A stretch of 64,000 bases of DNA, taken from assembly GCA_003280225.1 (NCBI GenBank), contig QCFO01000007.1, positions 22,386 through 86,385 of the forward strand, written 5' to 3'. Positions 49,826 to 52,792 of this stretch are shown here, piece after piece. Origin of the DNA: Prochlorococcus sp. AG-363-K07 (GTDB taxonomy: Bacteria; Cyanobacteriota; Cyanobacteriia; PCC-6307; Cyanobiaceae). The notes beneath the pieces are model-generated. The model was not told the DNA's origin. It did not search any database and was given only the letters and a program-made list of their open reading frames with translations. The first letter of the stretch is position 1; each line of letters starts with the position of its first letter. The translations under genes and the position numbers were made by a program.

Positions 49826-50368
49826 TTAGGGAGTATTTCCCTTAGAGCTAGTTGAAGCATTTGTGTCTTCTCTTTCATCTTTTTGTTGATGCAATTGCTC
49901 ATTGGATGAAGGTTCCTCTGTGGTTTCTGACTTCTGTTCATCATTCTTTTCTGGACGCACCCACTTCTTTTTTGGAATAGAGGATCTAGGTTTAGGAATA
50001 ACAACTTTAAACAAGTTTCCCAAAAGGCCTCCCAACTTGGCAAAAGCTGCGAAAAACTCCTTGATGCTTTTCGTCCATCTTGAGAAAGAATGCAATTGCA
50101 TCTTTTCATCTTGAGACAACTGATTCCATCTACTTTGGCCAACCTCAAACCCAAGTCTTGCTATAAGGAGAGCTCCAACAGCAATAGCCACTAACAAAGG
50201 AGGGCTTAAGCGGTCACTGCTAGTAATCAGAATCAATCCCAGCACAAGAATTAAAGCACCCCAGAACCCATCTTTTGGACGGCTTAGCTCAGTAACAAGA
50301 AGAGGTAAAAGCAATACAGCAAAACCGACTAATAATGATAAATCTGCTATAAAAACGGCCAGGATCAT
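49826..50368 (-). CDS. Conserved picocyanobacterial membrane protein (possibly Ycf66-like)
   Basis: 180 aa with N-terminal hydrophobic segments ([43 protein letters not shown]) and charged low-complexity C-terminus. Confidence 0.6.
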
Positions 50369-51000
50369 AAGATTTTTTGGGCCTTAACCCATTTTGCAGC
50401 TTGACTGGACAAGAGAGATTGGCAACAAAACGAGCAAAAAAGATCTCTTTTGATTTCATCCTCAAACCTAGAAAGATATAGCCATTCGGTCAATAGAGCT
50501 CTAATAAAAGGTTTTGATTCAAAAAGCTAATCTCATCCAAACTACAATTTGCTTTGTAGCAAGTCCAAAAGAGTGAGCGAAAAATATTTTAGATGACTCG
50601 AAAGGCAATTTAATTTGATTCTCTTATTGAATATTATTAGCATTCAACGATGATAAAAGCAGTATTTATCATCATTTAAATAAGTTCCATTGTAAAAACA
50701 AATATCACTTCAAGTCTTTCCAAAGCCTAAAAAAGACCAAAAATTAATTAGATCAAATTGATAGTTCAGCTCTCGCAAAATAGACTTAAAATCATAGATT
50801 ATTTGCTTTAATCAATAATGATGCATATATCTTAGAATTCTAATTAAATATTCTTTAAAGCCTTAATAACTCTTCTTTATAAAAGTAACGATAACATTAT
50901 CAATGTTTTCCTCACTAAATTACCATTCAGGTGAATTGACTAGATTAAGAAACACTCAACCCACTATTGTTACGAAGAGTCTTAGCTCAAAACCCTTGAA

Positions 51001-51097
51001 CCACCTCACGGAATTGGTAGACCCGCAAGTTTTAGATTCCTGGAGTGGCTTAGATACACAAGTGCAGAAGCTTTAGAAACTTCTAAGTCCCCCCATC
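51001..51097 (+). pseudogene. Degenerate tRNA-Leu-like sequence (upstream copy)
   Basis: CGGAATTGGTAGAC...CGCAAGTTTTAGATTCCTG...TAAGTCCCCCCAT resembles the intact tRNA-Leu(TAG) at 51333-51413, but acceptor and anticodon stems do not pair. Confidence 0.65.
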
Positions 51098-51109
51098 TTT
51101 CATCTTTAT

Positions 51110-51143
51110 TGATATCTACATCCATAAATGGCTGCAGATATCA
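51110..51143. repeat. Imperfect inverted repeat/hairpin between tRNA-Leu-like copies
   Basis: TGATATCT-A-CA-T-CCA-TAAA-TGG-C-TG-C-AGATATCA; 13 of 15 pairs complementary. Confidence 0.8.
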
Positions 51144-51332
51144 ATACCAGTTCCACGAACTATGCAACAACCACTTCAATTTATGCTCAAGTTAAACTTA
51201 AGCGGTAATCCAATCCGGCACGATTGAAGACCCTTAGAAATAACACTCGTCAAGTAAAAAAGCAATAATATTAATTAGTAAGCATTAAAGCCTGGGTACT
51301 GAGTGATGCCGGGAATGTATGCTTAAAAGGGT

Positions 51333-51413
51333 GCGGATGTGGCGGAATTGGTAGACGCGGCAGTTTTAGGTACTGTTGTCTTTGACGTGGAGGTTCAAGT
51401 CCTCTCATCCGCA
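51333..51413 (+). tRNA. tRNA-Leu (TAG)
   Basis: GCGGATG/CATCCGC acceptor, GCAGT-TTTAGGT-ACTGT anticodon arm, long variable arm, GGAGG-TTCAAGT-CCTCT T arm. Confidence 0.96.
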
Positions 51414-51589
51414 TTAAAGATTTACCCAAGAACCAGCTGCACGATGTAGTCAATCGCGTTTAATCAACCATGGCAGTCAATTTCCTTCAAAGAAGTAGCT
51501 TTTTTAACCTTTTCCTCTTGCATTCGCCCTTGGATATAATGCCTGTAAGTCTGAAATCGCTAGCAATCACTAGTGCCTAACTGCAGCAA

Positions 51590-51646
51590 AAAAGCTTTAG
51601 GTACCTGTGACTTCGCTCATAGTAGTTCAAGTCTCTCGATGTGCAT
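51590..51646 (+). pseudogene. Degenerate tRNA-Leu 3'-portion-like sequence (downstream copy)
   Basis: AAAGCTTTAGGTACCTGTGACTTCGCTCATAGTAGTTCAAGTCTCTCGATGTGCAT aligns to intact tRNA-Leu(TAG) AGTTTTAGGTACTGTTGTCTTTGACGTGGAGGTTCAAGTCCTCTCATCCGCAT. Confidence 0.65.
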
Positions 51647-51766: not shown

Positions 51767-52792
51767 ATGTCACAGGAAATAAACCCTAAATCAAAAACGC
51801 AGGAAGGCAAATTGCTGACCTATTCTGACTGGCAAAAGGTTATCCAAAACTACCTAGATCCACCTAATCAGTGGAATCTCACCGTTGGGTTGTTCTTTGG
51901 AGGTTATGCGCTAGCAGCGCTAAGCATCTGGCAATGGTATCGAGGAACCTGGCCACTGCCTGTCTTAGTAGGTTTATCCTTCCTTGCTCTCCATATGGAG
52001 GGAACAGTTATTCATGATGCGTGCCACAAGGCTGCCCATCCAAATCGTTGGGTCAACCAAGCCATGGGTCATGGTGCAGCAATTTTGCTTGGTTTTAGCT
52101 TTCCCGTCTTCACCAGAGTGCATCTTCAACATCACTCACATGTCAATGATCCCAAGAATGACCCAGATCATATTGTGAGTACTTTTGGGCCAGTTTGGCT
52201 CATTGCACCAAGGTTCTTTTATCATGAATACTTTTTCTTTGAACGAAAGCTTTGGAGAAAGTATGAATTAATACAATGGGGATTTGAAAGAAGTCTTTTT
52301 GTTCTAATTGTCTTAACAGGAATAAAACATGATTTCATGAATGTCATATACAATCTTTGGTTTGGACCAGCCTTAATGGTTGGTGTTACTTTAGGCATTT
52401 TCTTCGACTATCTACCCCATAGGCCATTTTTATCTAGGAATAAATGGAAAAATGCACGAGTTTATCCAAGTAGATTGATGAATTGGTTAATAATGGGACA
52501 AAATTATCATTTAGTCCATCACCTATGGCCATCTATTCCATGGTTTGAATATAAACCGGCATATGAAGCCACCAAACCTCTTTTGGATGCGAAAGGTTCA
52601 CCTCAACGTATAGGTATTTTCGAATCACGTAAAGATGGGTTCAATTTTTTATATGACGTTCTTTTAGGAGTAAGAAGTCATAAAAAAAATCGAAGCAAAA
52701 TGCGACCTTTGGCAAAAATACTACCTAGCAATAAACTTCGTAAGAAATGGATTGGTTTATTGCATCGTACAGCCGTAATTCCAACTAAATAA
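51767..52792 (+). CDS. crtR: Beta-carotene hydroxylase / fatty-acid-desaturase-superfamily membrane di-iron protein
   Basis: His boxes HDACHKAAH, HLQHHSHVND, NYHLVHHLWP; CrtR-like overall layout. Confidence 0.88.
   Translation: MSQEINPKSKTQEGKLLTYSDWQKVIQNYLDPPNQWNLTVGLFFGGYALAALSIWQWYRGTWPLPVLVGLSFLALHMEGTVIHDACHKAAHPNRWVNQAMGHGAAILLGFSFPVFTRVHLQHHSHVNDPKNDPDHIVSTFGPVWLIAPRFFYHEYFFFERKLWRKYELIQWGFERSLFVLIVLTGIKHDFMNVIYNLWFGPALMVGVTLGIFFDYLPHRPFLSRNKWKNARVYPSRLMNWLIMGQNYHLVHHLWPSIPWFEYKPAYEATKPLLDAKGSPQRIGIFESRKDGFNFLYDVLLGVRSHKKNRSKMRPLAKILPSNKLRKKWIGLLHRTAVIPTK

Follow-up and report, generated by a model that had tools for sequence, protein, structure and literature searches.

How does an intact tRNA-Leu(UAG) gene come to lie between two degenerate tRNA-Leu-like segments? 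This question is raised by a locus of Prochlorococcus sp. AG-363-K07, whose genome, of Prochlorococcus type, is represented by 1.74 Mb at 93.7% completeness. The window referred to below is the whole stretch of 64,000 nucleotides of contig QCFO01000007.1 that was analysed. The original prediction, made from the letters alone, took the two segments for degenerate copies of the intact gene and considered a left-over of tRNA-targeted integrase insertion, an empty or decayed integration site, a tycheposon and a decayed serial tRNA duplication. The computational analysis reviewed here makes it probable that the locus is the decayed scar of an integration by a T7-like cyanophage, in which a phage-type tRNA replaced an essential host tRNA.

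The split ancestral tRNA-Leu(UAG) gene

The locus lies between a ycf66-like gene on the left (49826-50368, minus strand) and a crtR-like gene on the right (51767-52792, plus strand), both of them open reading frames that are conserved as neighbours in relatives and that carry putative names given by the earlier reader. In relatives, the interval between the ycf66-like gene/ileS and crtR is the site of the ancestral tRNA-Leu(UAG), which reads GCCCAYCTGGCGGAATTGGTAGACGCGCTGGTTTTAGGTACCAG... in the gap before crtR and in which GCCCAYCTGGCGGAATTGGTAGACGCGCTGGTTTTAG and GTACC... are contiguous as a single gene. Comparison of this interval across relatives, which had been proposed as a check, was informative: one intact ancestral gene is present at 76 of the 79 crtR loci with readable upstream DNA, and an insertion was found in four genomes. 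In the window, a 5′ half of the ancestral host gene (50999-51035, plus strand) ends at the anticodon loop, TTTTAG, on the attL side, and a 3′ half (51596-51645, plus strand), matching the 3′ half of the relatives' intact gene at 83-85%, begins with TTTAGG on the attR side; an insert of approximately 560 bp separates them at the anticodon loop. BLAST maps the left and right segments side by side in the relatives' gene with an overlap of TTTAG. Both the split and the intact gene of relatives are thus seen directly, and because the segments are contiguous as one gene there, they are, as judged by alignment, two parts of one gene cut at the anticodon loop rather than two copies.

The resemblance of each half to intact tRNA-Leu(UAG) was equalled by none of 1000 dinucleotide shuffles, but in an Rfam search at E ≤ 10 neither flanking segment was recognised as a tRNA, and therefore neither is a working gene. 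The two predicted copies have to be redescribed. Of the upstream one, placed at 51001-51097, only the 5′ half ending at 51035 is tRNA-like; the remainder matches a cyanophage attP arm, so that the "AAGTCCCCCCAT-like" resemblance noted there is probably due to chance. The similarity of the downstream one, placed at 51590-51646, is real, but it belongs to the matching 3′ half of the split gene. At present, the acceptor ends of the two halves pair poorly in the window, and neither ARAGORN nor Rfam finds a tRNA at either junction. Between 50999 and 51645 there are only small open reading frames, with no recombinase gene and no cargo.

The junctions of the insert and cyanophage attachment sites

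Where does the insert come from? A scan of IMG/VR yielded 41 marine virus contigs with the 5′ half of the ancestral tRNA, and in all 41 the tRNA match stops at TTTTAGGT, which is the split point in the window; the insertion point is the phage attP core within the tRNA-Leu gene. In 10 contigs examined closely, an open reading frame of approximately 105-135 aa is followed by a tyrosine integrase of approximately 285 aa, approximately 100 bp of DNA, the tRNA half, approximately 120 bp that include a terminator-like hairpin, and lastly the RNA polymerase, which is T7-like and approximately 780 aa long; some of these contigs end before the polymerase, and the order holds where the contig extends that far.

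The left side of the window's insert follows this order directly: the host 5′ half is succeeded by a decayed attP arm, the phage P′ arm with a terminator-like hairpin (51036-51163, plus strand), and then by the decayed 5′ end of an RNA polymerase gene of T7-like cyanophage type (51164-51286, plus strand). When all six frames of the 64 kb were searched with a polymerase N-terminus HMM, the latter was the sole significant match (E 7e-5). Compared with phage DNA beyond the core, the stretch from 51036 to 51331 reaches a score of 39, whereas the highest shuffle score was 25 (0/300). A DNA profile built from attP arms lacked the sensitivity to recover the arm of the window, its sole match in the expected place being in AG-463-F15, a second genome with the insert (E 0.007), and therefore alignment against shuffles and the protein profile were used. 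The mean score of the window's P′ arm against UAG-type attP arms was reached by 1 of 300 shuffles and its best single score, which is not significant, by 38 of 300, while its homology to the AG-463-F15 arm was matched by 0 of 500. In AG-463-F15 itself, an alignment of 129-135 bp links the DNA to the right of the 5′ half to the attP contigs L253 and L268; the arm without its tRNA part, which matches L268, scores 23 (0/300 shuffles) and fits the UAG-type attP group better than the CAG-type group. Upstream of the 5′ half the window has a phage-like flank; the idea that it is a second attP was dropped, as the host flanks of relatives are alike.

Other attachment arrangements were also encountered in the virus contigs. 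Downstream of its integrase, L337 apparently has a T7-like cyanophage attP with the 3′ rather than the 5′ half of tRNA-Leu(CAG). Seven contigs with related integrases (L291, L305, L306, L315, L316, L353 and L355) have no recognisable tRNA-Leu 5′ half within 260 bp downstream, and their attachment sites may lie elsewhere.

On the right side, alignment suggests a 3′ stub of a phage integrase gene (51416-51463, plus strand; DVVNRV* in the window versus DAINRI* in AG-463-F15), followed by the P arm (51464-51595, plus strand); the latter, assigned by spacing, covers the place where attP has its 5′ half, which is not tRNA-like here. The sequence after the inserted tRNA of AG-463-F15, AKLLITSGSDAINRI*, resembles integrase tails more than any of 500 shuffles with a stop-anchored tail matrix; with the same matrix the stub of AG-409-P01, a third genome, is weaker (7/500), and those of the window and of the fourth genome, G007, are each not significant alone. 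Most UAG-type phages have 130-132 bp between the integrase stop and the core; measured from the stop of the stub, the corresponding distance is about 131 bp in both the window and AG-409-P01, and in AG-463-F15 about 110 bp. For 51414-51595 there was no convincing DNA match among the virus contigs compared. Since an HMM of integrase C-termini gave no match, the right junction, an integrase tail and a P arm at standard spacing to the left of the 3′ half, is probable, not proven. Nevertheless, the original prediction was right in seeing a left-over of tRNA-targeted integrase insertion, as the junctions match the attP regions of T7-like cyanophages. An empty site is not what it left: a shrunken insert occupies it.

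The inserted tRNA and the other genomes with the insert

The intact tRNA-Leu(UAG) within the insert (51333-51413, plus strand) was predicted correctly: it scores 55.3 bits with the Rfam tRNA model, and ARAGORN places it at 51332-51414. It is a replacement of foreign type, about 71-77% identical to the ancestral type. The window's assembly directly shows no other intact tRNA-Leu(UAG). As this assembly is only 93.7% complete, a second gene could be absent from it, but this is unlikely because AG-409-P01, which is 99% complete, is also without one. We infer that the inserted tRNA is expressed and does the job of the host tRNA.

The window's tRNA type resembles tRNA-Leu genes of cyanophages such as S-CAM3 (88% over 79 bases), and virus contigs L280 and L281 have the same body with a different acceptor stem. 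Other cyanobacteria, too, have genes like it (87%), so that a phage origin of the window's own inserted tRNA is likelier than proven. The tRNA-Leu(UAG) of the AG-463-F15 insert has a counterpart identical at 82 of 83 positions on the T7-like virus contig L214, the portal of which is nearest to those of the Prochlorococcus/Synechococcus T7-like phages NATL1A-7, S-TIP37 and P-SSP7. The intact tRNA in the insert and that of L214 are of the same isotype as the host gene.

The split and the inserted tRNA are found in three genomes besides the window, AG-409-P01 (G033), AG-463-F15 (G006) and G007, that is, in 4 of the 400 family genomes searched. The inserts, about 430-560 bp in size, are homologous, with 66-75% identity over about 316-467 bp for most pairs, and the window's alone has the extra polymerase stretch. 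In a tree of ileS and crtR, whose key supports are 0.95-0.98, AG-409-P01 stands well apart from the other three with intact-tRNA genomes in between: it groups with L093 (0.95), and L078, which has an intact gene, groups with AG-463-F15 and G007 (0.97). The nodes joining AG-463-F15 to G007 (0.29) and the window to its neighbours (0.19) are weak, and the claim is therefore limited: if the tree holds, the insert occurs in at least two well separated lineages.

Two features of the inserts bear on their history. The junction between the tRNA 3′ end and the integrase stub is the same in all four despite two tRNA types, for which neither one deletion nor repeated decay accounts simply. Moreover, the inserts retain 58-70% identity (shuffle means 49-52%) whereas fourfold sites between the hosts are only 0.34-0.44 identical, near saturation. 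Such conservation points to horizontal transfer or to a miniature element that is mobile; slow change of intergenic DNA is nevertheless a possible explanation, since 61% identity is likewise retained in a host spacer of 49 bp.

A third tRNA-Leu(UAG) type (GCGGTCG...) occurs at the same locus on the opposite strand, in L077 and L049 (AG-363-P08 and G128) and in L053-L057 of genus g18. Next to it, L077 retains the ancestral gene in decayed form, with a score that 2/200 and 0/200 shuffles reached. Here the same tRNA was apparently replaced a second time and independently; a search of viral sequences for this third type gave no match. Loci L124 and L125, in a planctomycete metagenome-assembled genome labelled Blastopirellula sp. 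NAT61, are probably contamination because they combine a picocyanobacterial crtR with tRNA-Leu.

The probable phage integration, its alternatives and its meaning

The process favoured here can be outlined as follows. The host's single tRNA-Leu(UAG) would have been severed in its anticodon loop, at the core TTTTAGGT, when a phage tyrosine integrase recombined this site with attP, and a 5′ and a 3′ half would have resulted. A complete tRNA-Leu(UAG) of the phage's own would have come in with the invading DNA, and for this reason the cell would have survived the loss. The prophage would then have shrunk by deletion to about 560 bp, leaving an attP arm, a polymerase stub, the phage-type tRNA, an integrase stub and the other attP arm in this order, and once the new tRNA was present, the halves of the host gene would have decayed. 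Presumably integration did not restore the host tRNA, and presumably the replacement arrived with the same phage. One T7-like phage, contig L289/L362, does have the TTTTAGGT core without a tRNA 5′ half; lacking that half, it could not rebuild the host gene and would need a tRNA of its own. No virus contig among those searched carries a short-core attP together with a tRNA-Leu(UAG). Against this outline stand the junction common to four genomes with two tRNA types, which repeated independent decay leaves unexplained, and the integrase stub, significant in only two of the four.

Two other histories draw on the common junction. A miniature mobile cassette, consisting of both attP arms and one tRNA gene (about 430-560 bp) without integrase and moved in trans by infecting T7-like cyanophages, could repeatedly have split and replaced Prochlorococcus tRNA-Leu(UAG). 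The separate position of AG-409-P01, with intact-tRNA relatives interspersed, and the conservation of the insert against saturated fourfold sites agree with such a cassette, but no free or viral copy was found, the polymerase stretch is present in the window's insert alone, and the host spacer and the two weak nodes blunt the arguments from conservation and from the tree; we regard it as a tentative possibility. Alternatively, a single ancient prophage scar may have descended vertically, intact lineages having been restored by homologous recombination or precise excision. The complementary acceptor halves that persist in AG-463-F15 fit this history, but many restorations would be needed and L078, with its intact gene, clusters with AG-463-F15 and G007, which renders it unlikely.

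Explanations without a phage fare worse. Tycheposons, which combine a tyrosine recombinase and cargo between tRNA-derived ends, were reportedly described by Hackl et al. in 2023 as tRNA-anchored mobile DNA of Prochlorococcus, and in being so anchored the locus is like them. However, it has neither cargo nor recombinase gene, and its arms and its polymerase stub correspond to attP regions of T7-like cyanophages, making a remnant of a tycheposon or other tRNA-anchored island very improbable. Serial duplication of the host tRNA with decay of the outer copies could explain three tRNA-Leu-like stretches within 650 bp, but the outer pieces are complementary halves of the ancestral gene with a single cut position, the middle gene is of a different, virus-like type, phage sequence lies between the pieces and relatives have a single intact gene; it is less probable still. 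The anticodon loop is also where group I introns of cyanobacterial tRNA-Leu genes are located. An intron here, or a functional split tRNA joined after transcription, is nevertheless the least probable reading, as Rfam intron models gave no match at E ≤ 10, the acceptor ends pair poorly and the insert itself contains an intact tRNA.

How does the phage scar relate to known systems? Tyrosine integrases with an attP downstream that matches tRNA-Leu are known from T7-like cyanophages, and integration of P-SSP7 and S-TIP37 into tRNA-Leu was shown in the laboratory (Shitrit et al., 2021; PMC8776855); the contigs analysed here add the RNA polymerase beyond attP to this arrangement. The laboratory integration was only transient, with no stable lysogens, and the authors remark that hundreds of single-cell genomes contain no intact prophage (PMC8776855), whereas here the integration is fixed and almost all phage genes are lost. 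The scar also resembles, as far as analogy goes, the tRNA-dependent lysogeny of actinobacteriophages (Guerrero-Bustamante and Hatfull, 2024; PMC10865867), in which a phage without the tRNA half destroys the host tRNA and needs its own. We infer this link because no contig shows core and tRNA together. The present case differs in that T7-like cyanophages and a cyanobacterial host are involved, and in that it is a fixed, decayed scar with permanent tRNA replacement, known from sequence rather than from lysogens.

Despite the integrases of T7-like cyanophages, their stable integration in Prochlorococcus has been an open question. The absence of stable lysogens in the laboratory stands for the phages tested there; the scars indicate that integration has sometimes been fixed, at least twice if the tree holds. 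tRNA-dependent integration may thus occur outside actinophages, and virus contigs L214 and L289 provide material in which it is testable. The lasting effect of such scars would be a virus-type tRNA in place of an essential host tRNA.
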